Part shown: one piece after another, positions 3,414 through 19,423 of the stretch
Position numbering within the stretch: the first letter of the stretch is position 1
How the letters are laid out: every line of letters starts with the position of its first letter
Notes under the pieces: generated by a model
Databases searched by the model: none
Seen by the model: the letters and a program-made list of their open reading frames with translations, nothing else
What the model was told of the DNA's origin: nothing
Source: an uncultured Muribaculaceae bacterium
Lineage (GTDB): Bacteria; Bacteroidota; Bacteroidia; Bacteroidales; Muribaculaceae
Assembly (NCBI GenBank): GCA_934663645.1
Contig: CAKUKR010000040.1
Location: 1 to 19,423 of the forward strand
DNA length: 19,423 bases
Direction: 5' to 3'
Made by a program: the position numbers and the translations under genes

Positions 3414-6400
3414 ATGCATACGCTGATAGCAAACACGGGCATACAGACACTGACGTTCCGTATATCCATTGATATGCAAGACCGCCACAAGCAGTGGTTT
3501 CACGAGTGGTACGACAACGACAGCGGCGAGTGGAAACTCGAGCCGGTACATGAGGTATGCTCCGAAGACCAAGGCGCGTGGTATTACCGCAAGGCCGAGC
3601 TGAGCCGAGCCGGCTTCCTCGCCGCCGGCGTGACCTCGATTGAAATCAGCGACCTGCAGCATGCCGGCATATCGCCGCTTTTGGTAGACGGCGAAATGTG
3701 CAGCGGCGTACCAGGTGAAGTCTTCAGCCTCACCTTTTCCGACAAGGCCAACTCGTTCAACGCTTTCGTGAACGAATGGCTGCCCGCCCCCTACTTCTTC
3801 AACCGCACCGAACACAGGCAGACATTCGGCCCGCTCAACTGGGCCCGCTTCAAGCTCGTGCCGGCCGGTGAGGATGGCAGCCGCAAGCTGTACGACGTGC
3901 TGCTCGCTTTCGACACACGGGCGAAATACGAGGGCGACATAGCGGAAAGCGAGGTGCCCGTATTCCGCGACCGATACGGCCTCGACATCGACCTGTCGCT
4001 GTGCAACAACACCCTTGCCCTCTTCGACTTCTGCTCCTCCGGCAAGAGGTGGAGCTACGTTGACGAGCATCTCCTGCACCTGGTGCACCCCGGAGTGGCG
4101 CGTGTCGGGCTGCTGAAGGGCAACAACATACGCCGCATGGGATATGTGGCGTCCTACATATTTCTGATCAGCTACCTGCAAGAGAAGAACCTGCTGCCGG
4201 CAGTCAAGATGTACCGTGCCGACAGCGTGGTGACACGCGACGTTGACATGGTAATCGACATCGGCAACTCGCGCACAACCGCGTTGCTGACAGAGGAGCA
4301 TGAGGGGCAGCTGGATTACTTCAAGCAGGTGCGTCCGCTCTCGCTTACGGACTATACAGACATGCTGGCATACGACGACGAGGGCAACGCACGCATACGC
4401 ACCTACGACGAGCCGTTCGACATGCGGCTGGTGTTCCGCAAGGCAAGTTTCGGCAACTTCGGCCCGCGTGACAGCCGACAGTTCGTCTATCCCAGCTTCG
4501 TCCGCCTCGGCCAGGAAGCCAACTTCCTGATACACCGCGCCTCTTCTGGCGACGACAACGCCACTGGTGCGTTCTCGACATATTCCAGCCCCAAGCGATA
4601 CCTGTGGGACAAGAATTCCAGTCACGAGGAGTGGCGGTTTCTCGTGCTGCCGGGAGAGCCGGACGACCATGTGCTCAACCTGCCGGGCATCTCCCCGATG
4701 CTCCGCAGCGACGGACGCTTCGACCCCAACGGCGAGGGAGGGCAGTCGTCACACTATTCGCGACAGTCGCTCATGACGCTGTCGCTGCTCGAAATGCTGG
4801 TACAGGCGCACACCCAGATCAACGGCATACTCCACCGGTCAGCGGAACACGGCTTCGGAGACGCAGAAAAGCCACGCCGCATCAAGCGCGTCATAGTCAC
4901 CTGCCCCACCGCCATGTCCAAGCTGGAACGCGAGGCGCTGCTGCGCTGCGCCGGGGACGCTGTCAAATTGTTCTCCACGTTCTTCGGCATTGCCAAGGGC
5001 GACATGGCGGAGGTTATACCGCAGCCTGGCTCGCCGAGAGACGACACGCCCTCGCTGTATTACGACGAGGCTACCTGCTCGCAGCTCGTGTACATGTACG
5101 GCGAGGCCGGACACAAGTACAAGGGGTGCTGCGGCGAGTTCTTCCGCCTGTACGGCAGGCAAGAGGGCGACTGCCCGCCGTCGCTCACCGTCGGCTCGCT
5201 CGACATCGGCGCGGGAACGACCGACCTCATGATAAGCCGCTACACCTACGAGAAGGGTGATGTGACCACGCTGTCGCCCGAGCCGGTATTCTACGACAGC
5301 TTCTATTTCGCCGGCGACGACATGCTCAACGGCATGGTGAAAAACGTGATGCTCCTGAGCGAGGACAGCGCGTTGCGCCGCGCCCTCCACCACCTCTCCC
5401 ACCAGGACTACCGCCAGCGCATAAAGAACTTCTTCGGACCTGACCACAACAACCAGACCCTCGCCGACCGCATGCTCCGCAAGGACTTCAACATACAATA
5501 CTCCGTGCCGCTGATGTGCCATTTCCTCGAGCTGCTCAAGAGCGGCAGCAAGGACTGCATGGTGCGCTATGAGGACGTGTTCGCTGAATGTCCCCCCAAC
5601 GAAAGCGTGATACGCGGATTTGCCCGCAAGACCGGGGAGCGCGGCAACGAGGGCATCGACGTGACCAAGCTTGAATGGAGGTTTGACCGCCAGGCTGTGT
5701 CCTCTGTCGTGGAGAAGGAGTTCGAGCCGCTGCTCAAGAAGGTGGCGACTATAATGTACGCGCACGCCTGCGACCTGATACTTCTCTCAGGACGGCCGGC
5801 ATCACTGCCCGCAGTGCGCGAGATTTTCCTGAAATACTACCCCGTCTCGCCAGACCGTCTCATCCTGTTAAACAACTACTATGTCGGCGACTGGTACCCC
5901 TTCGGCAACAACACCGGCTACATCGCCAACCCCAAGACCATTGTGGCAATGGGAGGGCTGATAGCCCATTACGCCTCCGAACTCGGCGGAATGGGCAGCT
6001 TCGTGGTCAACCTCGAGAAACTGCGCACCGGGCTGAAGTCTACGGTCAACTACATCGAGGCCTCACGCGACGGACAGCCGATAGAGTACTTCATCACACC
6101 TGAAAACGCACAGGGCGACCTGACCGTAAGCCAGCTGCCGGCACAGCTGACAGTACGCCAGCTCGGCATGGACACATACCCGAGCCGTCCGCTGTACACC
6201 ATCGCCTTCGACCGCGCACGCATCGCCGACCGCATACGCCGCAAGGCGTTCCTGACAGACGGCACTACGCTGACTGACAACCAGGTCAGAGCATTGACTG
6301 TGAACGCCATAGACGACCTACGAAAGCGCATGCCCTTCAAGCTGACAATACAGCGCGACAGCGACGACAAGGAAAACCTCTCAATCGTTTCCGCAATCGA

Positions 6401-6503
6401 CCGCCACGACAACGAAGTCCAGGACGGAAACCTGGAGATGCACATCCAGAGCCTCGGCACAGACGACCGCTACTGGCTCGACTCAGGCGCGTTTAACTTC
6501 TGA
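3414..6503 (+). CDS. srfB: SrfB-like protein with actin/Hsp70-type ATPase core
   Basis: 1029 residues, close to the usual length of about 1,000 for the SrfB family. The N-terminus 'LIANTGIQTLTFRI' agrees with the conserved SrfB opening, which supports the start at 3414. The ATPase core shows a phosphate-1 loop 'VIDIGNSRTT' (residues 280-289), a phosphate-2 loop 'LDIGAGTTD' (596-604), an adenosine motif 'LILLSGRPASLP' (788-799) and a following helix 'NPKTIVAMGGLI' (839-850). Together these mark the actin/Hsp70/sugar-kinase fold. No signal peptide or membrane segment is seen, so it is cytoplasmic. In enterobacteria, SrfB is encoded with SrfA and SrfC in an SsrB-regulated locus of uncertain function. 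I infer an ATP-driven chaperone- or filament-like role for the complex made by this operon. It is the first gene, 11 nt ahead of the SrfC-like gene. The family call is firm; the role is not known. Confidence 0.82.
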   Translation: MHTLIANTGIQTLTFRISIDMQDRHKQWFHEWYDNDSGEWKLEPVHEVCSEDQGAWYYRKAELSRAGFLAAGVTSIEISDLQHAGISPLLVDGEMCSGVPGEVFSLTFSDKANSFNAFVNEWLPAPYFFNRTEHRQTFGPLNWARFKLVPAGEDGSRKLYDVLLAFDTRAKYEGDIAESEVPVFRDRYGLDIDLSLCNNTLALFDFCSSGKRWSYVDEHLLHLVHPGVARVGLLKGNNIRRMGYVASYIFLISYLQEKNLLPAVKMYRADSVVTRDVDMVIDIGNSRTTALLTEEHEGQLDYFKQVRPLSLTDYTDMLAYDDEGNARIRTYDEPFDMRLVFRKASFGNFGPRDSRQFVYPSFVRLGQEANFLIHRASSGDDNATGAFSTYSSPKRYLWDKNSSHEEWRFLVLPGEPDDHVLNLPGISPMLRSDGRFDPNGEGGQSSHYSRQSLMTLSLLEMLVQAHTQINGILHRSAEHGFGDAEKPRRIKRVIVTCPTAMSKLEREALLRCAGDAVKLFSTFFGIAKGDMAEVIPQPGSPRDDTPSLYYDEATCSQLVYMYGEAGHKYKGCCGEFFRLYGRQEGDCPPSLTVGSLDIGAGTTDLMISRYTYEKGDVTTLSPEPVFYDSFYFAGDDMLNGMVKNVMLLSEDSALRRALHHLSHQDYRQRIKNFFGPDHNNQTLADRMLRKDFNIQYSVPLMCHFLELLKSGSKDCMVRYEDVFAECPPNESVIRGFARKTGERGNEGIDVTKLEWRFDRQAVSSVVEKEFEPLLKKVATIMYAHACDLILLSGRPASLPAVREIFLKYYPVSPDRLILLNNYYVGDWYPFGNNTGYIANPKTIVAMGGLIAHYASELGGMGSFVVNLEKLRTGLKSTVNYIEASRDGQPIEYFITPENAQGDLTVSQLPAQLTVRQLGMDTYPSRPLYTIAFDRARIADRIRRKAFLTDGTTLTDNQVRALTVNAIDDLRKRMPFKLTIQRDSDDKENLSIVSAIDRHDNEVQDGNLEMHIQSLGTDDRYWLDSGAFNF

Positions 6504-6514
6504 CACCACACGAC

Positions 6515-9349
6515 ATGACACACGACATAGACAAACATATCACCATAATCAACGACGCTCTCGCCTGGGCACGCGAGTACGGCAAGAACTCATTCCCCAC
6601 AGAGCAGTTCAAAAACTACCGTCGCGAGCTGGCCAAGATACGCGGCGTACTGTCGTCCAAATGCTCCGCCGCAGCATACGGCGAGAGCCAGGTGGGCAAG
6701 TCATACCTCATGAGCAGCCTTCTCTCCTCCGCCGACTGCCCCTTTGAGATTGAGAACGGAGGCAGGAGGTACAGCTTCATCGACGAGCTGAACCCAAGCG
6801 GCGGCAACAACGCCAAAATCGAGTCCACCGGCGTTATCACGCGCTTCACCACAAGCCGCCAGACGCAGAAGCCGGCGGGAATGATACGCATCTCCAACCT
6901 CTCCGTGCTTGACATAATACTCCTGCTGGCCGACTCTTATTACAACGACATCAAGATAGACCCTGACAAGTCGCTGTCCGCCAACTCGATAAACTCAAAG
7001 CTGAACGAACTCGCCACGCTGTGGAGCGGTGCGTCAGCGCAACAGGACATAATAACCGAAGACGACATTCTCGACATAAACGACTACATACGCGAGGTCA
7101 TAGGCAACGCCGCTGCGGCTGTGTACCAGTCAAACTTCTGCAAGGTCGTCGCACCGGTCATTTGCCGTGTCCCGCACCAGTGCTGGCCGGACGTGTTCAG
7201 CCTGCTGTGGAACCAGAACGCCGAGATAACCCGGCTCTTCGCCACCCTCGTCAACGCCTACGAGAAAATCGGCTTCCGCCGCGAGGTGTACGTGCCTTTC
7301 GACGCGGTGCTGCGCAGCAAGGGCACTCTGCTCAAAATAGAATGGCTCGACACCGTATGCGGCGCGAAGCCAGCCGTCAGCGACGACGGCAGCAACGACG
7401 ACGTGCCGGTCACAGACATATACGACGCGGCAGGGCAGCTGGTGGCACGCGACTTCAACAAGGGGGAACTGTCCGCCCTGACAGCCGAACTGACATTCGA
7501 GTTGCCAATGCAGCTTGTCGAGGAGCGGAATTTCCTCAACCAGATGGACTTGCTCGACTTCCCCGGAGCAAGGTCTCGTGAAAAATACAAGGAGAGCGAA
7601 ATCGCCACCGTGCTGCCGCGTATGTTGCGGCGCGGCAAAGTCGCGTACCTGTTCAACAAATACTCGCGCTCGCAACAGATAGGCTGCGTCCTGTTCTGCC
7701 ACCACAACGACCAGAAAGCCGAACCCACCATCGGCGACACGATAAACAGCTGGATAGAGGATAACATCGGCAAGGATGCGCAGGAGCGGACACGGATGCT
7801 GCAAGACACCCGGGGCATCTCGCCGCTGTTCCTCATCGCCACGAAATTCAACATCGACCTGGAGTGTACCAAGAACGACAAGCAGGACGACACATCGACC
7901 CTCGACAAGCACTGGAACCGCTTTGACACAGTGCTGCCCGAGATTGTAGGTCCAAGCAAATGGCTCGACCAGTGGACTGTATCTGCCGGTGTCGCCAAGC
8001 CGTTCCAAAGCATCTACCCGCTGCGCGACTTCTACTGGTCTGCCAAGAACGGCCTGTTCGACGGCTACAGCGACGGCGAGACGAAATCGCCGGAAAAGAG
8101 CCTCCATTTCCACCCCGACTTCCCTGGATACATGGACTGCCTCAGGAGAAGTTTCCTCAGCAACCAGTTCGTCCGTGACCATTTCGCCAGCCCCGAAAAG
8201 ACATGGGAAGAAGTCGCCACGCTGAACAACGACGGCTCGAAGCCCATAATCCGCGACCTCGGCGAAATATCGGGAGTGCTGGACGAGGCGCGCCGCAAGA
8301 GATGCCTCGAAAGGCTCATTGCCCTCAAAAAGGCTATCGACAGCACATTGCGAGTGTATTACGACGACACCGACGACGAGGCCAAGGACAAGAAAGTCCG
8401 TGCCATAGCCGGCCAGATACGGCGCACCCTGACATCCGCTATCGCCCGCGACCCCGGCACATTCGGCGGTGTGATAGACCGCCTTATGGTCAGCCCCGAG
8501 GCGATACGCAACATGGCATACGACATCATAGTGCTTCACACCGACAAGCCCCGAGACTTCAACAACATCAACATACTCCACGCAAATGCCGGCATTGACT
8601 CCGCCGCCCCGAGACAGGAAAACGTCAGACGGCTCATGTCCTTCACCCAGCTTGACACAGAGGACGAACTGAGCGAATACCTGAAGTCACAGGGCACAAC
8701 TATCGACGAGGTCATCTCCGGCGACACGAACAAACTCGCCACAATTGGAGGCGTCATCACCAAGCATGCCACCGGCTACTGGACAGACCACCTCAACCGC
8801 GCCGCAGCGGAGATGTCAGAGACACTGCCCTGCGCCGACGAGCTGGTGTTCATGCTCACAACCCTGTTCAGCAAGCTGGGCGCAGACCGTGCCATGGCAG
8901 AGCGCATCGACCGCTACGCATCGCTGTTCGGCACAGAAGAGCAGATAAACGCTATCGGCGACTACGCCTCTCTAACGCTCAACAGCTTCGTCAGCACCGT
9001 AGGCCGTGAATATATGCCCGACAGCGAGCTGGAGAACCTGCGCAGCAAGGCCGGCCGCTGCAACATCGCCATCGACCTGTCGCCCGCTGCATGGGAAAAA
9101 GCCGCCGAGCCGCAGCCGCTCGAGGAGACCCTCCGCGTGTTTGACGACGCGGCAAAAATACTCAACAGCCAGCACGTCAACATGGACGCACTGCGCCGGT
9201 TGCCCTTCTGGAGCAACTACTACAAATGGGAAAACCTCGTCTTCATCGGCCTGCTCTACTCGTCTGACATCTCGCACTGCGACCCGGTCAGCAACGGCAA
9301 AGTCCGGGACTTGATAGACCGCAACCAGGCACTTTATTCAGGACAATGA
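6515..9349 (+). CDS. srfC: SrfC-like large P-loop protein, probable GTPase
   Basis: 944 residues, cytoplasmic in appearance (no signal peptide or membrane helix). It has a G1/P-loop 'GESQVGKS' at residues 56-63, in the middle of 'AAAYGESQVGKSYLMSSLL'. A G3-type 'LLDFPGARSRE' has its Asp-x-x-Gly at 348-351, and a G4-like 'IATKFNID' has TKFN at 443-446. The G4 site lacks the canonical Asp, so guanine specificity may be weakened. The wide spacing between G1 and G3 and the long helical C-terminal half recall dynamin-like or other large GTPases. The family call rests on position directly after SrfB, on size and on the P-loop, and matches the SrfC 'putative virulence factor' group. It probably forms a regulated NTPase partner of SrfB. 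It ends one base before the protease gene, implying translational coupling. An alternative is an unrelated large GTPase of a conflict system. Confidence 0.68.
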   Translation: MTHDIDKHITIINDALAWAREYGKNSFPTEQFKNYRRELAKIRGVLSSKCSAAAYGESQVGKSYLMSSLLSSADCPFEIENGGRRYSFIDELNPSGGNNAKIESTGVITRFTTSRQTQKPAGMIRISNLSVLDIILLLADSYYNDIKIDPDKSLSANSINSKLNELATLWSGASAQQDIITEDDILDINDYIREVIGNAAAAVYQSNFCKVVAPVICRVPHQCWPDVFSLLWNQNAEITRLFATLVNAYEKIGFRREVYVPFDAVLRSKGTLLKIEWLDTVCGAKPAVSDDGSNDDVPVTDIYDAAGQLVARDFNKGELSALTAELTFELPMQLVEERNFLNQMDLLDFPGARSREKYKESEIATVLPRMLRRGKVAYLFNKYSRSQQIGCVLFCHHNDQKAEPTIGDTINSWIEDNIGKDAQERTRMLQDTRGISPLFLIATKFNIDLECTKNDKQDDTSTLDKHWNRFDTVLPEIVGPSKWLDQWTVSAGVAKPFQSIYPLRDFYWSAKNGLFDGYSDGETKSPEKSLHFHPDFPGYMDCLRRSFLSNQFVRDHFASPEKTWEEVATLNNDGSKPIIRDLGEISGVLDEARRKRCLERLIALKKAIDSTLRVYYDDTDDEAKDKKVRAIAGQIRRTLTSAIARDPGTFGGVIDRLMVSPEAIRNMAYDIIVLHTDKPRDFNNINILHANAGIDSAAPRQENVRRLMSFTQLDTEDELSEYLKSQGTTIDEVISGDTNKLATIGGVITKHATGYWTDHLNRAAAEMSETLPCADELVFMLTTLFSKLGADRAMAERIDRYASLFGTEEQINAIGDYASLTLNSFVSTVGREYMPDSELENLRSKAGRCNIAIDLSPAAWEKAAEPQPLEETLRVFDDAAKILNSQHVNMDALRRLPFWSNYYKWENLVFIGLLYSSDISHCDPVSNGKVRDLIDRNQALYSGQ

Positions 9350-9350
9350 C

Positions 9351-12155
9351 ATGGAAGACAAGCACACATTCATAGGGAAACGGAAAGTCTGCAGCACAGA
9401 CCCTTGCGACTTCACAGACTATCAGGGCATCGGCAGCGACCCGATGTACAGACGGTACGAGAGCGTGCGGAGCATCATCGGCCACGTCATTGACCCGGCC
9501 TTCGCACACTTCCTCGCAGCTCCGGACTATTCCACAGAAGAAGATGTGATCAACTGGTACATCGATGACTGGACGGAAACGCCGGAGCGGCTCGCGGACA
9601 TGACCGGCGACAAGCGGACACGGTACGCCGCCGTGAGAGACGCGACCTTGGCGCATTACCGCGATACGCTCGACAGCCTGTCGGGCGACGAGCTGCAGAT
9701 CATGCTCGGGGCTTTGGTCAGCGCCGGCAATGACGAGCTGACATTCGGCTGCGACGGCAAGGTGTTCACAGTCGCATGGGGCATGAGGGTTGACACCAAC
9801 AAGCACCCCATAATCGGCGAAGTGATACACGAATCGCCATACCGCGTCAAGCATGACGTGACTTTCGACCCGGGCGAGCACGGGCGCATAGCCTCTCCTC
9901 TCGGCGGCAAAATCTCGCTCGAAGAGGGCGCGGAGATAACGCAAAACGACATACCCGCAGTCGAGGCAGACAGCGGCTACGAGTTCACCGGCTGGCAGCC
10001 CTCGCCCCTCGGCGCGAAAGTCACCGGCGACCTCACATTCACAGCCGCATACCGCGTGGCGATACCCCCAATTCCACCCATTACCCCTGAGCCTGAACCA
10101 GATCCGATGCCACCGCAAGAGGCCGTATGCACCTTCAACGCCGGCCTGCACGGCTCGCTGCGCGGCGAGGGGATATTGACACGCCCCCTCGGCTATGTGC
10201 TGACGCCAGCCGACATTCCGCAGGTCATGCCCGAAAAGGGATGGACGTTCAAGGGCTGGTCTGCCAATCCGCGGAACACTTGCCTCAACGGCGACATGAC
10301 ATTCGATGCCGTCTACGAGAAGAAGCTGCCGTGGTACAAGCGGCTGTGGGACAGCTGGCTGAAATGGCTGTTGCTCGCACTGCTGGCACTGCTACTGCTG
10401 CTCCTACTCTCATGGCTGTTCCCCAACTGCCGTGGCTGCACGCACGCAGTCAACGGCGTGGCTGACCTCGACCGCGTCGTCACCGCAACAGGCGACACGA
10501 TAGACGACAACGGCTATGCCAAGCCCATACCCCTCAACGACGGCAAGCTCCCCGACGGCGAAGCAATCGTCGCCCCCATACGCGGCGAGGACGGCAAAGC
10601 GCCCAACATAATCCGCAACCCGGGTGTGCCGCCCGTAATGGCAAACCGCCTGTTCCTCTTCCTCGAGGACGAAAGCGACAGCGTGGACGCGCTCGCTTCC
10701 GACTTCAAGAAGGCCTACCCCGACGACAAGTACTGCATCGTCGGCTACGACCGCAACGTGAAGTCGCTCGTCATACAGATACCCGAAAACGAGCGCGACA
10801 ACATACGCCAGACCATCAACCAGCGCATACCGAACCACCGCTTCCTCGTCTTTGACGAGCAGATATACGAAATCAACGCAAGCATCGGCAGCCCGAGCGA
10901 CACCAACACCAGCGGCGCGGCAAACGGCTGGCACATCGACGCCGTGCGTGCGCGGCAAGGGTGGAACATCACCAAAGGCTCGCCCGAAGTCACCGTCGCT
11001 GTCGTTGACGACGGCATCGATGCGGGACACCCGATGTTCACCGGGCGCATCAAGGACGCATACAACGTCTACACGCAGAACAACCGCCTGAGCCGGGGCG
11101 TAGGGCACGGCACACACACCGCCGGCCTTGCCGTCGGCTCGCTGCAATACCTCAGCCGTGGCGCAGCCGGCATCGCACCGGACTGCAAGCTGATGCCCGT
11201 CCAGGTCGTTGACAACAGCGTCTGCCCGATGTCCGCACTCGTGAGCGGCATCATGTATGCCGTCCACAAAGGCGCGGACGTGGTCAACATATCCATTGCA
11301 CCCACGTTCCAGGGGCTGAACGCGCTCCCCGTAGAGGCGCAGCGCGAGATAATGCAGTCGCAGTTCAAGAATGTCGAGAAGCTGTGGCTTCGCGTCACCA
11401 GGCTTGCCGCAAGCAAGAGGACAATACTCGTGTTCGCAGCCGGCAACGACGACATCCTCTCCGGCATACCCCCCGAAAACCGCACCCAGTCGGCGATAAC
11501 CGTCGGCGCGGTTGACAGCCGCCTCTACCCCACAGACTTCACCAACTACGGCACATGCACCGACATCTCCGCCCCCGGCAAAGGGATATACTCAGCATAC
11601 CCCGTAGGCAGCTTCACCTGCTTCGACGGCACAAGCATGGCCGCGCCAATAGTCACCGGCACGATAGCGCTGATGAAGTCACTCAAAAAAGACCTCACCG
11701 TAGAGCAAGCATACAACGTCCTCTACCGCACCGGAGCCGACGTGTACGGCAACATGCCGCCCCTCGTGCAGGTAGACCGCGCATTGGAGGGCGTACGCAA
11801 GGGAGACTTCAGCAAGCCCGCCAAACGGCAAATGCGCCACGTGCCGCATGATGCAATCGACACAGGTGATCTTCCCATATCAGTAAAAGACGACACCGGC
11901 GCATACACAGACACTGTGGTGCCGAGCCCCATAGGCGGCACTGACGATGGCCCGATTGTCGACCGAACCGCGCCCGACGACAGCCGAGTACGAGGACGCG
12001 ACAATGAAGTTGCTCCGCCTGTCTCCGGCAACGGCAGCGACTACGACCGGATAAGCCGGATAAGAGAACTAATCGAATATTACGAAAGGAAAATAGTAGA
12101 ACTGGAAGGCCTGCTTCCTGAAAATCAGAACAACAGAAAAAAGACCAAGAAATGA
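9351..12155 (+). CDS. Membrane-anchored subtilisin-like (S8) protease with InlB-type repeats
   Basis: 934 residues with an unusual order. Residues 1-165 form an unrecognised mostly helical region. Two divergent InlB-type (Listeria-Bacteroides) repeats follow: about 168-232 ('VTFDPGEHG', 'GYEFTGWQPS', 'TFTAAY') and 259-325 ('CTFNAGLHG', 'GWTFKGW', 'TFDAVY'), joined by a Pro-rich linker. A single membrane helix lies at about 339-358. An inhibitor-like or linker part (about 390-530) precedes the S8 peptidase domain. The catalytic triad is intact: Asp553 in 'VVDDGID', His586 in 'GHGTHTAG', Ser762 in 'DGTSMAAP', with oxyanion Asn699 in 'AAGND'. A polar, charged tail ends the protein. There is no N-terminal signal peptide. 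Lys/Arg residues just before the helix ('KKLPWYKRLW') predict N-inside, putting the protease in the periplasm. It overlaps the next gene by ATGA. It is likely the effector of the operon. Confidence 0.85.
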   Translation: MEDKHTFIGKRKVCSTDPCDFTDYQGIGSDPMYRRYESVRSIIGHVIDPAFAHFLAAPDYSTEEDVINWYIDDWTETPERLADMTGDKRTRYAAVRDATLAHYRDTLDSLSGDELQIMLGALVSAGNDELTFGCDGKVFTVAWGMRVDTNKHPIIGEVIHESPYRVKHDVTFDPGEHGRIASPLGGKISLEEGAEITQNDIPAVEADSGYEFTGWQPSPLGAKVTGDLTFTAAYRVAIPPIPPITPEPEPDPMPPQEAVCTFNAGLHGSLRGEGILTRPLGYVLTPADIPQVMPEKGWTFKGWSANPRNTCLNGDMTFDAVYEKKLPWYKRLWDSWLKWLLLALLALLLLLLLSWLFPNCRGCTHAVNGVADLDRVVTATGDTIDDNGYAKPIPLNDGKLPDGEAIVAPIRGEDGKAPNIIRNPGVPPVMANRLFLFLEDESDSVDALASDFKKAYPDDKYCIVGYDRNVKSLVIQIPENERDNIRQTINQRIPNHRFLVFDEQIYEINASIGSPSDTNTSGAANGWHIDAVRARQGWNITKGSPEVTVAVVDDGIDAGHPMFTGRIKDAYNVYTQNNRLSRGVGHGTHTAGLAVGSLQYLSRGAAGIAPDCKLMPVQVVDNSVCPMSALVSGIMYAVHKGADVVNISIAPTFQGLNALPVEAQREIMQSQFKNVEKLWLRVTRLAASKRTILVFAAGNDDILSGIPPENRTQSAITVGAVDSRLYPTDFTNYGTCTDISAPGKGIYSAYPVGSFTCFDGTSMAAPIVTGTIALMKSLKKDLTVEQAYNVLYRTGADVYGNMPPLVQVDRALEGVRKGDFSKPAKRQMRHVPHDAIDTGDLPISVKDDTGAYTDTVVPSPIGGTDDGPIVDRTAPDDSRVRGRDNEVAPPVSGNGSDYDRISRIRELIEYYERKIVELEGLLPENQNNRKKTKK

Positions 12156-13195
12156 ACGAAAGACTGCAATTCTCATGGGGACACATCATCGCCTTCGTCG
12201 CGCTGATTGCCGTGAGCTACATATCATTCATGGGCATAACATACCTCACAGCCGGCAACTTCGTCGCCGCGCTGTTGGGCATGGCCGCAATAGACATCCT
12301 CTTCATGCTCTTCTTCATCGGGGCGCAGCAGATGAAAGCCTCCGGCGAACACATCAACCGCAAGATCATATTCGAGCGAATATTCATCTTCGGCTCGCCA
12401 ATAGTCTTCATCGCCGCCATGATGCCCATGTCGCACTTCTGGACTGTCAAGAGCAACGAGACGAAGATAGTGGGCACATTCCAGGGGGCAATCAGCAGCG
12501 CAAAGCTGCTGTTCCCCGACTACGAGAAATATTCCGAAGACCGCATCGCAGCCTACGGCAAGTCGCTCGACCAAATCATCAGCGGCGGCAACGGCAGCCT
12601 GTTCTACAAGGCCGGGTTCGTCGAGGGCAAGACCGCCATTCAGAAGCAGAACATGCTCGAGACACTGCGGCTGCAGCTACTCTCCGAAAACTACACAGCA
12701 ATCAAGACACCAGCCAATGCGTGGCTCGACAACGCCACGCAGTCCGCCAGCATCTGGAACGTATTCCTGCTCGGCAACACACGCAAAATCAAGAAGACAC
12801 TCGTGCAGTGGGAGACCAAGCTGAAAGGCTTCAGCGAGAAACAGATGTCAAACGAGGCGCTGCTCTCCGAAGTGCCGCAGTTCAGCAGCAGCGGCGTATC
12901 AGCCGCCCTGTCCCAGCTCGACCAGATGAGCGCCAACTTCACCCAGTGGCACTTCCCCGCATTGCCAGGCATCATCTTCGGCATCGTCATCTACCTCATG
13001 CTCCTCTTCCCCTACATCCTCCAGGAACGCCACCCAAGAAGCATTTATCGGCTAATAGGCAATGAACGCCTGTATGGCATGGAGTGGATAAGAGCATTTA
13101 TCAAAGGACGACGGCAGCCTGACAGCAACCGTGATGCTTGGAGCGACACCAAAGCCAACGAGAACTCTTCAAATGACTTCCCAGCCACATTCTAA
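12152..13195 (+). CDS. Four-pass inner-membrane protein with a large loop, unknown function
   Basis: 347 residues. Three hydrophobic helices near the N-terminus (about 11-32, 36-57 and 75-93) are followed by a soluble, mostly helical loop (94-268), a fourth helix (269-290) and a basic cytoplasmic tail (291-347). A basic segment between helices 2 and 3 ('NRKIIFERIF') puts that loop inside, so the 175-residue loop should be periplasmic, on the same side as the protease domain of the preceding gene. I recognise no family. The ATGA start overlaps the protease stop, so the two are probably made in fixed ratio, and a partner, substrate or regulator role for the protease is plausible (inference). 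The last 50 codons are AT-richer than the rest, coinciding with the composition change of the operon. Confidence 0.75.
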   Translation: MNERLQFSWGHIIAFVALIAVSYISFMGITYLTAGNFVAALLGMAAIDILFMLFFIGAQQMKASGEHINRKIIFERIFIFGSPIVFIAAMMPMSHFWTVKSNETKIVGTFQGAISSAKLLFPDYEKYSEDRIAAYGKSLDQIISGGNGSLFYKAGFVEGKTAIQKQNMLETLRLQLLSENYTAIKTPANAWLDNATQSASIWNVFLLGNTRKIKKTLVQWETKLKGFSEKQMSNEALLSEVPQFSSSGVSAALSQLDQMSANFTQWHFPALPGIIFGIVIYLMLLFPYILQERHPRSIYRLIGNERLYGMEWIRAFIKGRRQPDSNRDAWSDTKANENSSNDFPATF

Positions 13196-13240
13196 GCCAT
13201 TTGAGAAGCACGAAAGCAACAACAAAACACACAACAGAAT

Positions 13241-14614
13241 ATGCCAACAAAAGAAACTATACTCGACAACGTAGGGAACTACACACCTCCACAACTGGTG
13301 GAATTTATCCAATCAGAGATTGTTACCTACAATGAGCTGTGCAACGAGGAGGACTTCTCAGCCCCCGCGAGGGCTGAAGTCAAACGCCTCCTCGAACAAA
13401 AGCCTGTGACCCCACCAGAACCAGAACCTGCACCAGCACCAGCACGTGACGGTGATGATGACGATCTGTTCGGTTTTGATTTAGATGAATTCAAAAGTCA
13501 GGTCAAACAAATGTATGACAATCCGCCAATAGGCAAAGACGCACACAAAGCCGTGGCCGATCTTGTGAGCCAAGAACTTGAAAACGAGAATTTGTCAAAA
13601 CAAGACCTGCTCGGAATCATCAAACGTGACAACAATTTCCTGAGTGCCTCAACGCTATACCAACTGAAAAAGGCAAACAAAATAACGACAAAGGACTTAA
13701 CAAATTGCGGCATAGAAAAAGACTTCATCGAGCTAATGAACAATGACACGAAAAGAGGGAATTTTGCACCTCCTTCAAAGCCTCTTAACAAAATCTGCAT
13801 GACATGTACCGAAGTGTACTTCTGGGGAATACCGACATCAGGCAAAACATGCGCACTTGGCGCAATCATGAGTGTAGCCAACAATGGCATCGTGGCAAAA
13901 ACCATGAGCAAAAAAAACTGCCAAGGATATGACTACATGAACCGTCTGTCTTTGCAATTTCAACGAGACAAAATCAAGGTCTTGCCAGGCAAAACCCCCA
14001 CTGATTCTACTTACGAAATGAGTTTCGAACTCACCGATAAAAATAACAAAGTCCATCCGTTTACCTGCATCGACATCGCAGGGGAAGTAATGTTGGGGAT
14101 GTACGACGGAGACGTCAATGAACCTATGGAGCCAGTTTTCAAGGTACTCGTCGACAAAGCAACAAATAACCGCAAGATCCACTTCTTTGTAATCGAATAT
14201 GGAGGCGAAAACCGTTTGTTCGATGGTCTGACACAACAGACCTATCTCGAAAGTGCGGTTAAATATCTCAAGGAAACAAACATCTTCAAAAAGGACACAG
14301 ATGCAATATACCTCATCGTGACAAAAACAGACATGACAGGGAAGACAGGGACGGATCTCCAAAAAGAGCTGAGAGACTATGTCAACCTCCACTATAGAAG
14401 TTTCTATACTGGACTCAACCAAATATGCCATGATAACGGCATAAACGGAGGCGAAGTCGTGTGCATACCATTCTCTGTGGGAAAGGTTTGTTTTAAGTAC
14501 TACTGCAAATTCGACGACAGTGCTGCATCAAATGTGGTAAGAGAACTGCTGACACGCAGCAAGGGATTCAAAAGCGGCAAACTTCAAGATATTCTAAACA
14601 GATTCAAACGATGA
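13241..14614 (+). CDS. GTPase with N-terminal helical adaptor-like segments
   Basis: 457 residues, soluble. GTP-binding motifs are all present and in order: G1 'GIPTSGKT' (196-203), G3 'DIAGE' (278-282) and G4 'TKTD' (361-364). This indicates a TRAFAC-type GTPase with an active-looking site. The N-terminal part has a helical segment 'TPPQLVEFIQSEIVTYNEL' (about 15-33, within 8-53), a Pro/Ala/Glu linker (54-70) followed by an Asp run, and a second helical segment of similar flavour ('LSASTLYQLKKANKITTKDL', about 134-153). Such short helical modules often serve as protein-interaction adaptors in bacterial conflict proteins (inference). The gene is AT-richer than the four before it. Its stop overlaps the next start by ATGA, so it is coupled to the coiled-coil membrane protein. 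It may belong to the GTPases found with 'GTPase-associated proteins' in predicted conflict systems. Confidence 0.75.
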   Translation: MPTKETILDNVGNYTPPQLVEFIQSEIVTYNELCNEEDFSAPARAEVKRLLEQKPVTPPEPEPAPAPARDGDDDDLFGFDLDEFKSQVKQMYDNPPIGKDAHKAVADLVSQELENENLSKQDLLGIIKRDNNFLSASTLYQLKKANKITTKDLTNCGIEKDFIELMNNDTKRGNFAPPSKPLNKICMTCTEVYFWGIPTSGKTCALGAIMSVANNGIVAKTMSKKNCQGYDYMNRLSLQFQRDKIKVLPGKTPTDSTYEMSFELTDKNNKVHPFTCIDIAGEVMLGMYDGDVNEPMEPVFKVLVDKATNNRKIHFFVIEYGGENRLFDGLTQQTYLESAVKYLKETNIFKKDTDAIYLIVTKTDMTGKTGTDLQKELRDYVNLHYRSFYTGLNQICHDNGINGGEVVCIPFSVGKVCFKYYCKFDDSAASNVVRELLTRSKGFKSGKLQDILNRFKR

Positions 14615-16620
14615 GCAAAATCGGACTACAAATCACTACATGTCAGGAGGGCTTTAGAAGAGGTGACCCTTTTAATGGCGACGGATCTTGGGAAAACCAG
14701 TGTATCGACATTAGAACCCCAATACTGTTACGCTATAACTACGACGATGCCGCAAAAGAATACGGTATGTTTATGCGCTTCAGCAAACAGGGTTCATACA
14801 TCACTATCTGGAAGTTCCACTCCGGAAGCGAAAATGATTTTACGGCCTTTTGGCTGTTCATACCCTCTGGCATCAAGATAGAGGGAAAAGAGGTTCTTGA
14901 TCTCATCAACAAGGTAAAAGAATCACTGCCCACCTTACACGAGGAACAAACCAAAAACGAAATCAAAGCCTTGCTCTCAAAAGAGTATCACAGAGATGAG
15001 AATGCACCCGACCCTATAGAGTCCAAGGGGAAAATGAGCGACAATGCAACATTGGCATTCCGCAAATACAAAGACGAGAATGAGTTGGCAGACCTTATAG
15101 GCAACAAAAGATGTCAAACATACTATGAGGACTATGCAGCTATTCTCCTGACAGGCCCGAATGGTCTGCAGCTGAAGAGTCCAAACGACATCAAAGACCT
15201 GACGAACGAAAAACTGGTCGAGTATGCTAAGCTGCCACTTCCCCAAAAACTCAACGAACAAGGCATCAAAGTCTTCATAGACAACAGCGAAAGCGAATAT
15301 ACTCAAAAGCAGAAGTTTGAAATCGGGCATGAAATCAACCTGACCTTCAAAAAGGACGACCGTGAAGACATCAATAGAAACAAAGTCAAGTTCGAAGATC
15401 CCGACACATTCTGGGAAAACGCAGCTGCCGATCTCAAGTGGGAGAAGAAAATCACTCGCGATATGTTCCATGTCACAGCCAAACCAGAAGTCGGCGATGA
15501 AGACCATGCTCCCGAATGTACAATCAAAATCAACGGCGAAAAACTCACAGAAAAAGGCATCCTAATCCAAGAAGACAAACTGTCCGAGGTTCACGTTGAA
15601 ATAACACTGGAACACTTCGAGACACATCATTCAACCGACCTAACCTCGAAAAGCATCCCCATCAATATGGCAGAAAAGAAAGAATACACAAACAGCCAAT
15701 ACCAAAAGAAGGTCAATGATCTTGAGGACACAAAACGGGAACTCAAAGCGAAAGAGAAGGAAATCACCAATCTGAACAAAGACATTGGGGAAAAAAATGA
15801 TGAGATTACGAAGCTGAAGGAAAAACTCCATAACGAGAAAAAAGAGAATACGGCGACAACAGACAAAGAGGTTGGCGACTCCCCCGATGATGATAAAGGG
15901 AATGTAGACGCCCCCAGCCATGGTAAAAAGGGGGAAAGGGGGAACAACAAAAAGGACAAGCAGAAGAATGAGGACGGCAATAATACACTTGACCCAGAGA
16001 AGCAGGAAGACCCCAAATCTCGCCTCACCAGTGAAAACGGACAGTCAGAAGAGAAAAGAAGAGAAAAGAATAAGTGGACAGTCTGGCTTATAGTTTATGC
16101 TGTGGTCACGACCGTGATCTCTGTCGTGTTGGCATTCGTGCTTTTGTCAGTCAGGACTCTCCCTGATTTGACTTCAGTCTCCTCCAACGACAATGCAACT
16201 GCCACAGCAACAATGCAAACAGAACAAGCCGCAATCGCAGAAATCACTGACAGTATTCCGGCAATCAACTACCTGAAGAACTGCGATGGCATACTTCTCA
16301 AAGACAGTTTGGAGCATTACCAATACACCAAAGGCCTGTGGGACGACCTCAACGACTTCAACCTCGAGAAAGTCATCGGCGAATGGGCTGAAAAACTCAG
16401 AGGCAGAGGAATACAATACTTCGAAGACATTGCCGACCATGCAAAGAATTGCATTGACAAGAATTTGCTCGACAAAGCCAAAGAGAAGAACAGCGGTCAC
16501 TACAATAAAGCCGAAGACCTGAAAATCAACGTGAAGAATTACTGTAACTGGATTGATGCGGCGTGCGACAAAAACACTTCCTCAAATGATTCAGAAGACA
16601 AATACGGGAGCGGCTATTAA
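14611..16620 (+). CDS. Coiled-coil single-pass membrane protein coupled to the GTPase
   Basis: 669 residues. The N-terminal domain (about 1-120) is a beta-rich module with 'YGMFMRFSKQGSYITIWKF' (51-69) and 'FTAFWLFIPSGIKIEGKEV' (77-95), which I cannot assign to a named family. A middle region with Ig-like beta strands ('INLTFKKDDRED', 'ECTIKINGEKLTEKGI') runs to about 350. A strong heptad coiled coil rich in Lys/Glu lies at about 355-415. A low-complexity Lys/Asp/Asn linker follows (about 416-487), then one membrane helix (about 489-514) preceded by basic residues, and a 155-residue helical C-terminal domain that should be periplasmic. The translational overlap with the GTPase suggests a dedicated partner that carries a signal across the inner membrane (inference). 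The gene is AT-rich like its immediate neighbours. Confidence 0.72.
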   Translation: MSKIGLQITTCQEGFRRGDPFNGDGSWENQCIDIRTPILLRYNYDDAAKEYGMFMRFSKQGSYITIWKFHSGSENDFTAFWLFIPSGIKIEGKEVLDLINKVKESLPTLHEEQTKNEIKALLSKEYHRDENAPDPIESKGKMSDNATLAFRKYKDENELADLIGNKRCQTYYEDYAAILLTGPNGLQLKSPNDIKDLTNEKLVEYAKLPLPQKLNEQGIKVFIDNSESEYTQKQKFEIGHEINLTFKKDDREDINRNKVKFEDPDTFWENAAADLKWEKKITRDMFHVTAKPEVGDEDHAPECTIKINGEKLTEKGILIQEDKLSEVHVEITLEHFETHHSTDLTSKSIPINMAEKKEYTNSQYQKKVNDLEDTKRELKAKEKEITNLNKDIGEKNDEITKLKEKLHNEKKENTATTDKEVGDSPDDDKGNVDAPSHGKKGERGNNKKDKQKNEDGNNTLDPEKQEDPKSRLTSENGQSEEKRREKNKWTVWLIVYAVVTTVISVVLAFVLLSVRTLPDLTSVSSNDNATATATMQTEQAAIAEITDSIPAINYLKNCDGILLKDSLEHYQYTKGLWDDLNDFNLEKVIGEWAEKLRGRGIQYFEDIADHAKNCIDKNLLDKAKEKNSGHYNKAEDLKINVKNYCNWIDAACDKNTSSNDSEDKYGSGY

Positions 16621-16647
16621 AAACGACAACCATCAAAACAACAAAAA

Positions 16648-17580
16648 ATGAAGACTCGAATAAAGATAATATTGCTGATGCTGTTCACTGTAGGAGCAGT
16701 GACCGGAGTGCTTGCAACCGCGAAAAAAATAGCAGACCCACCAACAAAATTCCCGGTTGTAGACCAGTACTCAAAAGCAATACAGGCAGACGTGCGTGAA
16801 CTTGACTCTGCGTCAAATTTCACGCAAAGCCGCAATCTGTATGTCGCCCTCGATGACAAACTTAAGCGTTTCCGTGCAGAGGATGTAATCGGAAATGACT
16901 CCGCCGACACCTGCCTAATAAGGATAGACACAAGCTATGGCAAACAGCTGAAAAAGTATTGTCACCACATACTAAACAGCCCAAACTGGACTGGCAGCCA
17001 ACTTGCGACAATGATAGGTTATGCTGACGCTTTGTCTGCAGACAGACTGTCTGACGGCAAACAAGCTATCACCGACAGACTTGCTGCCTCATTCGCTGAA
17101 CTGCACACGATTCAGAACAACTACAATGCCGCCCTTCAGGCATCTCGCAACACAGGGTACGTCAACATAGCTGATGCGAAAGCAAAAATTGCGAGGGCAA
17201 ACGAGTTCAAGAACAAGCAGTATCTGAAGAACAACTTTTCGCTCGTGACAGCACTCAATGCCGTCCCCAGAAAGATTGCCGCCTCGCACTACTACCATGT
17301 GAACGCCATTGTAAACAAGCTCGCAAGATACAAAAGTTTGTCATACAACGACTACATAGATGCAAAACAGAAAGCAACCAAAGCCATAAACGAGTACAGG
17401 CACACTGAAATATACGAAGGTAACAAAAAGAGCATAAAACCCATTGAAGACCGGAAATGTAAATTGTGTAAAGCAGCTGATGTTTATTACAACAAGCGAC
17501 AACACGGGCGAAAATCGAATTACCAAGCCGAAGACATCATAGGCTTGTTTGATTCAAGTGAATATGAATTTGTTGAATAA
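16648..17580 (+). CDS. N-terminally anchored or secreted helical periplasmic protein, unknown function
   Basis: 310 residues. A basic start 'MKTRIK' and a hydrophobic stretch (about 7-24) form a signal peptide or uncleaved anchor. No lipobox Cys is seen. The remainder is predicted to be largely helical, with many Ala, Lys and Asn residues ('DAKAKIARANEFKNKQ', 'DAKQKATKAINEYRH') and a CxxC pair 'CKLCKA' near the C-terminus (about 268-273) that could form a disulphide or bind metal. I recognise no family. It lies 27 nt after the coiled-coil membrane protein and just before the operon terminator. A role as the outer or periplasmic partner of that protein is a reasonable guess from order only. 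Confidence 0.7.
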   Translation: MKTRIKIILLMLFTVGAVTGVLATAKKIADPPTKFPVVDQYSKAIQADVRELDSASNFTQSRNLYVALDDKLKRFRAEDVIGNDSADTCLIRIDTSYGKQLKKYCHHILNSPNWTGSQLATMIGYADALSADRLSDGKQAITDRLAASFAELHTIQNNYNAALQASRNTGYVNIADAKAKIARANEFKNKQYLKNNFSLVTALNAVPRKIAASHYYHVNAIVNKLARYKSLSYNDYIDAKQKATKAINEYRHTEIYEGNKKSIKPIEDRKCKLCKAADVYYNKRQHGRKSNYQAEDIIGLFDSSEYEFVE

Positions 17581-17915: not shown

Positions 17916-19423
17916 ATGGATACCTCAACAAGGAAAAAGTATTTCTGGCTGCTCGCGGCCATTGTTTTCGTGCTTCTCTTCCTGTTCCTCGGCTTGTCGC
18001 CGTTCAACACCAAGGGTGAGCCGCGCGAGGCTGTGGTGGCTGTGTCAATGCTGAACCAGGACAACTGGATATTGCCGGTCAACAACGGCATCGACATGGC
18101 GTACAAGCCGCCGTTGTTCCATTGGTGCATCGCCGCATTGTCGTCCGTCTCGGGTGCGGTGACAGAATACACGTCACGCATGCCGTCGGCTCTCGCCCTC
18201 GCGGCGATGACGCTTGCCGGTTTCCTGTTCTATGCCAAGCGGCGCGGCACGCAAGTCGCGTTCATTGCCGCGCTGGTTACACTGACCAACTTCGAGGTAC
18301 ACCGTGCCGGCACAAACTGCCGCGTGGACATGCTGCTGACGGCGTTCATGGTCATTTCCCTGTACCTGCTGTACCGGTGGCATGAGCGTGACATGAAGGG
18401 TGTGCCGTGGGCCGCGATATTATGCCTGAGCGGCGCGTTCCTGACCAAAGGTCCGGTGGGGATGCTGCTGCCCTGCCTCGTCATCGCTGTTTTCATGCTG
18501 ATACGCGGGCGGCGGTTCGTCGAGGTGCTGTGGAAACTGGCTTGCATCGCGCTTGCTTCGTGCGTGCTGCCGCTGCTGTGGTATGTGGCGGCGTACCGGC
18601 AAGGAGGCGACGAGTTCCTTCAGCTCGTGCTGGAGGAAAACGTGCTGCGCTTCCTGGGCAAGATGACATACGGCTCGCACGAAAACCCGGTGTACTACAA
18701 TTTCCTGACCGTCCTGTCTGGCTTCCTGCCGTACACGCTTATGGCGCTGATTTCGCTGTTCACATTGCGCTATAAAGGGTGCATCACCGGCAAGCCGCGA
18801 CAGTGGTGGACGCGCTTCAAGGCGTACATACGCGAAATGGACGACACGCGGCTGTTCTCACTGCTCAGCATCGTCGTCATATTCGTGTTCTACTGCATAC
18901 CGAAAAGCAAGCGCAGCGTCTATCTGCTCCCGATATACCCGTTCATTGCGTACTTCCTTGCGGAATACATATTGTGGCTCGTGCGCACACGCCCTGGGGT
19001 GGTGAAGTCATTCGGACATATCATGGCGGCAATTTCGGTTGCCGTAGGCGGAGCGTTCATTTACCTCGGCTGCGGCGGGTCTGTTGACGCCCTGTTCAGC
19101 GGCAAGCACGCCGCACAGAATATGGAGTACGCACAGTCTGTTGCAGCCTCGTCGCACAACCTGCTTTCCGACGGGCTTGTACTGCTTATGCTGGCAGCGG
19201 CGGTGTCATACATCGCCATATACTCCCGACAGAAGTTTGACGCCAAAGGGTGCTGGCGGATGTTCGCGGTTGTCATCACGCTCTACATGGCGTTCGACGG
19301 CGTGTTCGCGCCGGCAATAATGCGAGTCAAGACCGACAAGTATGTAGCAGAACGGATTGCGGAACTCGTGCCGCAAGGCAAGCTGTACTCGTGCCACACT
19401 GGCCAGACCTCCGGCAACCCGAT
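17916..19423 (+). CDS. ArnT-like GT-C glycosyltransferase (3' truncated by window edge)
   Basis: About 502 residues are visible and the frame is still open at the right edge. It is a polytopic membrane protein that starts with a helix at about 10-30. The first periplasmic loop has the GT-C hallmarks: 'NTKGEPREAVVAVSML' with Glu35 in the position of the conserved acidic residue, then 'NWILP' and 'YKPPLFHW' (63-70). Later come a 'HRAGTNCRVDMLL' segment, an 'LTKGPVG' motif and a 'CIPKSKRSVYLLPIYP' segment typical of the PMT_2/ArnT family. These enzymes use polyprenyl-phosphate sugars to modify lipid A or other envelope glycans on the periplasmic face. The exact sugar and acceptor cannot be told. 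The ATG at 17916 is chosen because it gives a proper N-terminal helix 25 bases after a -7 element. The gene is a separate transcription unit from the operon before it. Confidence 0.85.
   Translation, partial: MDTSTRKKYFWLLAAIVFVLLFLFLGLSPFNTKGEPREAVVAVSMLNQDNWILPVNNGIDMAYKPPLFHWCIAALSSVSGAVTEYTSRMPSALALAAMTLAGFLFYAKRRGTQVAFIAALVTLTNFEVHRAGTNCRVDMLLTAFMVISLYLLYRWHERDMKGVPWAAILCLSGAFLTKGPVGMLLPCLVIAVFMLIRGRRFVEVLWKLACIALASCVLPLLWYVAAYRQGGDEFLQLVLEENVLRFLGKMTYGSHENPVYYNFLTVLSGFLPYTLMALISLFTLRYKGCITGKPRQWWTRFKAYIREMDDTRLFSLLSIVVIFVFYCIPKSKRSVYLLPIYPFIAYFLAEYILWLVRTRPGVVKSFGHIMAAISVAVGGAFIYLGCGGSVDALFSGKHAAQNMEYAQSVAASSHNLLSDGLVLLMLAAAVSYIAIYSRQKFDAKGCWRMFAVVITLYMAFDGVFAPAIMRVKTDKYVAERIAELVPQGKLYSCHTGQTSGNP

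Follow-up and report, generated by a model that had tools for sequence, protein, structure and literature searches.

The best-described relatives of the genes treated here are the srfABC loci of Pseudomonadota. Excerpts from one study report that SrfA, SrfB and SrfC form a complex and that SrfABC of Xenorhabdus is cytotoxic, and call it a toxin (PMC6950479). Excerpts from a 2013 paper call the function of SrfB and SrfC unclear, place srfB and srfC in host-associated and not in environmental Deltaproteobacteria, and describe srfABC in the host-associated ones beside tagQ and ppkA, mostly with tagR, tagS and tagT as well (PMC3608642). TagQRST-PpkA has in turn been linked to the sensing of outer-membrane damage (excerpt of PMC11881912). 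Among GTPase-centric conflict systems, Kaur et al. (2020; excerpt of PMC7159879) described a DO-GTPase with a GAP1 partner, some of these systems including an HSP70; no word beginning with 'srf' occurs in the main text of that paper, and a term search of PMC8195603 returned neither srfb nor srfc. Here we describe a seven-gene operon headed by SrfB and SrfC in a stretch of 19,423 nucleotides (the window, positions 1 to 19,423 of contig CAKUKR010000040.1, assembly GCA_934663645.1) from an uncultured Muribaculaceae bacterium. The operon is inherited as a unit, part of it is exchanged between loci, and we tentatively read it as a protease-armed machine of the inner membrane.

In the window, seven co-directional open reading frames (ORFs; 3414-17580, + strand), with intergenic gaps of -4 to +45 bp, encode in order SrfB, SrfC, a membrane-anchored subtilase (S8), a membrane protein with four helices (TM4), a GTPase, a membrane protein with a coiled coil (CC) and a periplasmic protein that carries an anchor (gene 7). 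An earlier note on this DNA, made by a model from the letters alone, had claimed a seven-gene operon with almost no spacing, as found here. Its family calls for SrfB, SrfC and the subtilase were borne out by matches above the Pfam cut-offs (PF07520, PF10139 and PF00082), and hydropathy agrees with the topology that it gave for the anchored subtilase, the four-pass protein, the coiled-coil membrane protein and the anchored gene 7. SrfB scored 723.4 bits against a cut-off of 27.1, with positions 12-991 of the 992-position profile covered, and SrfC, which starts 11 bp after SrfB, scored 317.3 bits against 28.1. Genes 4-7 had no match to a Pfam family above its own cut-off in the scan of the window proteins. 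No paper describing the operon was found among those listed by the literature searches, judged by titles and abstract starts, which agrees with the note's statement that no described system has this composition.

Like srfABC of Pseudomonadota, the operon encodes an SrfB of about full length, an SrfC that matches over most of its model, and an SrfA-type N-terminal domain followed by one helix; it differs in that this domain is fused to a subtilase after SrfC and that TM4, the GTPase, CC and gene 7 follow. Where the window has these last four genes, some Pseudomonadota operons have vWA, ABC and SUMF1 genes. The ABC and SUMF1 genes adjoining srf genes in such loci recall TagQRST-PpkA, but the window is without them (no Pfam match to an ABC transporter or SUMF1 among the nine window proteins scanned) and the link to its operon is by analogy. 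With the DO-GTPase/GAP1 systems of Kaur et al. the operon shares a P-loop GTPase with a glutamate after a G3-type motif, membrane parts and a fast-evolving component, and an HSP70 belongs to some of those systems. However, the GAP1 domain was not found in window-type operons, the DO-GTPase models match some relatives weakly and not the window, and SrfB is a different protein from their HSP70. A membrane-tethered subtilase is also found in the mycosins of type VII secretion systems, which are the best NCBIfam match of the S8 domain; at 129 bits against the TIGR03921 cut-off of 278.75 the window protein is not a member, its anchor lies N-terminal to the protease together with an inside SrfA-type domain, and none of the operon's genes was named as a type VII gene. 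Finally, an S8 protease is encoded beside an NTPase in IetAS, which we take to be an anti-phage system of an ATPase and an S8 protease. The window subtilase has a weak local match to IetS (E 2e-5), but as an IetS it is rejected at 18.8 bits against a curated cut-off of 900, the NTPases of the window are SrfB and SrfC, and its protease is membrane anchored.

The seven genes almost certainly form one co-inherited operon. An SrfB profile search of GTDB species genomes gave 79 loci, representing the best 80 matches, which are nearest relatives and not a random sample. Among the 80 loci including the window, iterated profiles matched SrfC in 77, S8 in 74, the GTPase in 71, TM4 in 67, CC in 31 and gene 7 in one; many of these loci end less than 10 kb past SrfB, short of CC and gene 7, and the 'S8' match of L016, L045 and L046 is the SrfA-type domain alone, without an S8 domain. 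All labelled genes lay on one strand in 80/80 loci, and the order SrfB-SrfC-S8-TM4-GTPase was kept in 63 of the 69 loci with at least 8.5 kb downstream (exceptions: L032, L061, L065, L066, L068 and L070), counting labelled genes only, with repeats merged and unlabelled intervening genes passed over. Gene 7 was matched in the window alone while the fetched DNA of the relatives ended too early. With longer DNA it was present in 11 of 20 loci, every one with the seven families in order: nothing stood between them in five (L092, L093, L096, L097 and L100), a second, shorter GTPase-profile gene was present in four (L094, L095, L098 and L099), and a gene was inserted in two (L103 and L107, the S8 frame of L107 also being split). 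The genes therefore co-occur in the order that the earlier note had put forward for checking, and are not rarely together, the observation that it had named as speaking against it. Distance matrices of the five genes from 66 loci correlated with r from 0.757 to 0.964 (permutation maximum 0.141). The SrfB tree places L017 and L022 among Bacteroidota, although their metagenome-assembled genomes are labelled Clostridiales and Limnohabitans, respectively; both may be mis-binned.

Exchange within the operon is well supported: SrfB-SrfC-S8 is constant, while the GTPase and CC, sometimes with TM4 and gene 7, are swapped between loci. In the window, third-position GC content (GC3) is 0.77-0.80 in SrfB, SrfC, S8 and TM4 and 0.49-0.54 in the GTPase, CC and gene 7, with flanking genes, including the downstream one, at 0.78. 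The core-minus-module difference of 0.27 is the largest among 85 sets (median 0.02, standard deviation 0.056), in which some genomes are counted twice. In trees of 26 chosen loci, SrfB groups the window with L001, L002, L003, L007 and L013 (support 100/100); the GTPase tree rejects this clade (approximately unbiased test, p-AU 0.001, log-likelihood 56.7 lower) and the TM4 tree does not (p-AU 0.387), these tests carrying a long-branch warning. Between genomes G002 and G009, identities are 85% for SrfB, 78% for SrfC, 76% for S8 and 80% for TM4, against 39% for the GTPase, 23% for CC and 36% for gene 7. The G003-G009 pair has 87, 84, 81 and 73% for the first four, 41% for the GTPase and 30% for CC, and again 81% for gene 7; in G004-G022 the fall begins with TM4 (SrfB 83%, SrfC 81%, S8 70%; TM4 39%, GTPase 54%, CC 25%), and in G002-G003 the GTPase follows the core (74%) and gene 7 diverges (34%). 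Since these patterns differ between locus pairs, the exchanged unit varies.

This set of about seven genes is patchily distributed in some gut and water bacteria. A close relative, L004, is from Bacteroides stercorirosoris DSM 26884. Among 395 genomes of the phylum, two carry SrfB, the centre genome included, and in the centre genome's family the count is 19 of 301; G017 holds two diverged copies (L030 and L058). A tyrosine recombinase gene lies 291-780 bp upstream of SrfB in L001, L002, L010, L013, L038 and L049, with a fragment in L040 (identity Pfam-checked for L001, L038 and L049). SrfB also matches on 142 plasmid records, 114 of them from Klebsiella, and on the Runella plasmid pSP2_1 (L091) the operon starts about 1.3 kb after annotated BREX genes. 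We conclude that the machine is mobile at least in part. Positions 11071-48605 of L091 hold an AbiEii-type gene, the BREX genes, the SrfB operon and several further unknown genes together.

The two leading proteins carry recognizable nucleotide motifs, which in SrfB we take to be Hsp70/actin-like. By our own motif patterns, phosphate-1 is kept in 68 and phosphate-2 in 78 of 79 SrfB relatives; SrfB has no hydrophobic helix by hydropathy, and a sequence search of the PDB at E up to 1 gave no relative. In SrfC, GxSQxGKS, DxLDxPGxR, T443 and N446 are invariant in 23- and 26-row alignments, the last two lying in TKFN in the window, and hydropathy gives a marginal stretch at 121-139. From these motifs, SrfC is probably a dynamin-like P-loop GTPase.

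The third protein consists of an SrfA-type domain, an InlB-type repeat, a helix at 339-357, a prodomain-like stretch and an S8 domain at 546-795. Five K/R residues precede the helix and one follows it, which would place the N terminus inside and the protease domain outside. In phmmer searches, residues 474-777 align with 398-residue Tk-subtilisin chains and 492-777 with an entry titled Tk-subtilisin precursor; the alignment to the long chains suggests a prodomain ahead of the catalytic domain. The serine that the earlier note had called catalytic, Ser762, belongs to the aligned set D553, H586, N699 and S762, and aligned D, H, N and S were all kept in 70 of 77 S8-profile proteins of at least 450 aa. 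Five of the seven exceptions have the SrfA-type domain and no S8 domain (two in L045, two in L046 and one in L016; Pfam-checked for L045 and L016); the other two are a protein of L011 truncated by the contig end and one L026 protein that is a different subtilase. L045 has a papain-family protease gene before TM4 (PF00112, E 3e-15), a gene in the matching position of L046 looks alike by eye, and a trypsin domain stands on the SrfA-type protein in L084 and in a separate gene in L085. With the catalytic set kept and other proteases in its place or beside srf genes, proteolysis would appear to be central to the operon.

In the srf operons of Pseudomonadota, the same SrfA-type domain stands at the N terminus of SrfA, of a protein with a trypsin domain and of vWA proteins. 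It matched in 8/8 Pseudomonadota plasmid loci, with zero matches to reversed decoys, and at E 0.001 among the 301 family genomes all 13 carriers were SrfB-positive, compared with 0 of 282 SrfB-negative genomes. Full-length SrfA (NF040486) had zero matches at E 0.1 among the seven proteins of the window. Judged by sequence, the window shares only the N-terminal domain of SrfA, fused to the subtilase and positioned after SrfC, and the earlier claim that SrfA is absent and the protease an added module needs correction, given that domain on the subtilase and its fusion to trypsin or vWA in Pseudomonadota.

Hydropathy gives four helices in TM4, one in CC (493-511) and an N-terminal anchor in gene 7, which was compared in a 12-row alignment. 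Across a 24-row GTPase alignment, G196, G201-K202, G281-E282, K362 and D364 are invariant (motifs GxxxxGK, GE and KxD). Of the 24 rows, nine match DO-GTPase1 (best 6e-6) and six DO-GTPase2 (best 5e-4) at E up to 10; the window row matches neither. A six-frame search of six genomes with DO-GTPase1 gave a best E of 0.005 (in the operon of G008) and none over the cut-off, and at E up to 1 there are matches in the 14 control genomes as well. The nearest named family is thus that of the double-GTPases (Kaur et al., 2020), to which kinship is plausible but weak. No GAP1 family was among the 25 families listed, out of 46, for 30 CC, TM4, gene-7 and related proteins, and GAP1-N1 had zero matches at E up to 1 in G004, G008 and G002. 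In L001, L004, L005, L010 and L013, a shorter gene (226-269 aa) matching the GTPase profile sits between TM4 and the full GTPase. CC is the fastest-diverging member in most pairs compared by pairwise identity and is poorly conserved throughout (about 20-26%), the median identities being 23.0% on the N-terminal and 22.1% on the C-terminal side of the helix (12 proteins, with one split at the wrong helix). Small genes after the CC-type gene cluster with CC by sequence (L101 5452-8926, L108 10627-13502, L109 4140-7459 and L091 40310-43137), a pattern resembling serial duplication of the sensor.

Relatives of TM4 and the GTPase also occur apart from SrfB. TM4 matched at E <1e-30 in 20 of the 301 family genomes, 17 of them SrfB-positive, and nine further matches were weak. 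The GTPase profile matches 167 of the 301, mostly via a repeat-like N-terminal part, and the GTPase part proper is strong in seven SrfB-negative genomes as well. In three of these seven neighbourhoods a TM4-GTPase pair heads another operon, and in G561 a GTPase gene precedes a CC-profile gene (E 4e-9). At 5820-8415 of L144, from a genome that has no SrfB match, a CC-profile gene comes after a GTPase-profile gene. In the SrfB-negative L140 (8712-18675), L141 (1014-11022) and L142 (9303-18670), TM4/GTPase relatives head an operon with a 10-13-helix protein and a second P-loop protein, and the L140 and L141 operons also encode a protein of ~830 aa. GAP1 models match nothing in the L140-L142 operons, GAP1-N2 and GAP1-M having been searched in three SrfB-negative genomes only.

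The reading we prefer, and regard as quite possible though short of probable, is that the operon encodes an inner-membrane machine, a Bacteroidota variant of the SrfABC type, which guards the envelope by controlled proteolysis against damage or invasion. SrfB, as an Hsp70/actin-like ATPase, and SrfC, as a P-loop and probably dynamin-like GTPase, would form a nucleotide-driven switch in the cytoplasm and dock on the protease through its inside SrfA-type domain. The subtilase domain would stand in the periplasm, its activity blocked by the prodomain or by the complex. The sensing half would consist of TM4, the GTPase, CC and gene 7 and face the periplasm via TM4, the CC tail and gene 7. Damage to the outer membrane, a phage or the weapon of a competitor, for example, might flip the GTPase, upon which SrfB and SrfC would turn over nucleotide and free the protease onto targets in the envelope or the invader, and either the invader's foothold would be destroyed or the cell killed. 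The reported interaction of SrfA, SrfB and SrfC supports a complex (excerpt of PMC6950479). Envelope sensing is favoured by the linkage to ABC/SUMF1 and tag genes together with the membrane anchors in the window operon: in L083, L085, L086 and L090, srfC is followed by genes for vWA, an ABC ATPase and a permease, and three of these loci also have a named SUMF1 gene; in L087, ORFs of similar size, without annotation, stand in place of the vWA/ABC genes; and the ABC parts of L083 are near LolD and LolCE by NCBIfam, below cut-offs. A conflict role, the likeliest of the options considered, and a plan of NTPases with a membrane-anchored protease, both of which the earlier note had proposed, are favoured by the patchiness, the cassette exchange, the recombinase linkage in some loci and the BREX-adjacent plasmid copy; exchange of the probable detector half is as expected for a conflict or defence system.

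Several observations weigh against this reading, and against defence in particular. SrfB was unmatched in 50,697 phage records, and no IMG/VR stretch encoding a relative was found. The enrichment in defence genes that the earlier note had suggested looking for was only modestly above control: PADLOC models at E 1e-10 gave 13 member matches by 11 models in 110 of 338 upstream neighbour ORFs and 3 in 110 of 112 control ORFs from 11 genomes, a weak difference since the matched proteins are not named by the tool and the loci differ between the sets. No direct repeat >15 bp was found in the four loci searched. The ABC/SUMF1 linkage is seen in Pseudomonadota loci, the window being without it, and vWA, ABC and SUMF1 genes are missing from L084, L088 and L089, three of the eight plasmid loci; five Pseudomonadota genes located after SrfC are not homologous to TM4 (hhalign probability 0.1). 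The SrfA-type domain was not seen at E 0.001 in six of the 19 SrfB-positive genomes. GTPase-like and TM4-like genes outside SrfB loci fit movable cassettes and equally genes not tied to SrfB, and vertical descent would likewise yield the high gene-distance correlation.

Four other explanations were considered. A role in envelope biogenesis or surface-protein maturation, in which the subtilase would process exported proteins as mycosin serves type VII secretion and the NTPases would power assembly, seems to us unlikely, though it deserves real weight. It would suit the mycosin match, the long, order-conserved and machine-like operon and the envelope-type extra genes of some loci, which encode TPR plus a retropepsin-like protease and a YfiO-like protein (L098), CarboxypepD_reg (L091 and L108) and vWA (L108). 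Against these stand the unmet mycosin cut-off and a rarity (19/301 and 2/395 genomes), cassette exchange and recombinase linkage in six loci that would be unusual for such machinery. The recombinase directly upstream in those six loci, the SrfB matches on 142 plasmid records and a relaxase-like gene near L049, itself below the Pfam cut-off (21.2 against 24.6 bits), would rather suit a stabilization or competition module of mobile elements, which helps integrases, plasmids or hosts to exclude rivals, e.g., by monitoring conjugation at the envelope. We find this rather improbable: elsewhere the recombinase profile matched only the L040 fragment and a short stretch downstream in L101, many loci having little upstream DNA, and the 114 Klebsiella records may reflect few lineages.

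That the operon encodes a virulence or toxin complex aimed at a host, the role suggested for Xenorhabdus SrfABC, is to our minds distinctly improbable. Such a complex would account for the cytotoxicity and the SrfA-SrfB-SrfC complex (excerpt of PMC6950479) and for the host-associated distribution of srfB and srfC in Deltaproteobacteria (excerpt of PMC3608642). However, SrfB has no hydrophobic signal and SrfC only a marginal internal stretch, and all the other proteins save the GTPase carry membrane helices. Loci also come from a freshwater Runella plasmid and from Niastella, Gelidibacter and Fluviicola, which we presume to be free-living. That separate loci were joined by chance in the window has virtually no probability; a recent join could leave a composition break like the one at 13196-13240, but the explanation is refuted by the five-gene order in 63/69 loci and the seven families in order in 11/20 extended loci.

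Extending the envelope-guarding reading across phyla is more doubtful, if still possible: the SrfABC loci of Bacteroidota and Pseudomonadota may be one broad class of envelope-surveillance immune machines with an SrfB/SrfC switch, interchangeable outputs and exchangeable sensors. The outputs would be a subtilase, trypsin, papain-like protease or vWA on a common SrfA-type inside domain and membrane helix, and the sensors TM4-GTPase-coiled coil in Bacteroidota and ABC plus SUMF1 in some Pseudomonadota. In that case, 'virulence toxin' would name a side effect of SrfABC or would be a wrong name for it. SrfB and SrfC carry the name 'virulence factors' in Pfam, and the operon supplies a partner with defined chemistry, a subtilase with a complete catalytic set, while the shared SrfA-type module unites loci of two phyla. 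Cassette exchange marks the half under selection to change and thus indicates where to look for the signal. Should the envelope-guarding reading be true, an envelope-based, protease-armed class would join the known bacterial conflict systems.

Table 1. Coordinates of the operon genes and selected features in the window.
Feature	Position	Strand	Description
SrfB	3414..6503	+	1029 aa; PF07520 E 6e-217
SrfC	6515..9349	+	944 aa P-loop protein; PF10139 E 3e-94
Membrane-anchored subtilase	9351..12155	+	934 aa; PF00082 E 4e-41, Flg_new_2 (PF18998) E 8e-7
SrfA-type N-terminal domain	9351..9851	+	window residues 9-152 matched; predicted alpha/beta fold
Catalytic residues	11007..11636	+	putative, by alignment: D553 (11007), H586 (11106), N699 (11445), S762 (11634)
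TM4	12152..13195	+	347 aa; four hydropathy helices, large loop between helices 3 and 4
Composition break	13196..13240	+	GC3 0.77-0.80 on 5' side, 0.49-0.54 in 3' module
GTPase	13241..14614	+	457 aa; GIPTSGKT, IDIAGE, TKTD
CC	14611..16620	+	669 aa; predicted inside N-terminal domain, coiled coil, helix 493-511, ~158-residue outer part
Gene 7	16648..17580	+	310 aa; predicted periplasmic, N-terminal anchor

The operon is flanked on its 5' side by a gene for a TonB-type outer-membrane receptor (444-2909) and on its 3' side by a PMT_2 glycosyltransferase gene starting at 17916. Some relatives have extra genes past gene 7, which the window is without: those for TPR plus the retropepsin-like protease and for the YfiO-like protein lie at 15751-19198 of L098, and the CarboxypepD/vWA genes at 16088-18205 of L108. 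Genes that cluster with the one for the L098 TPR protein are also present in L097 and L099.

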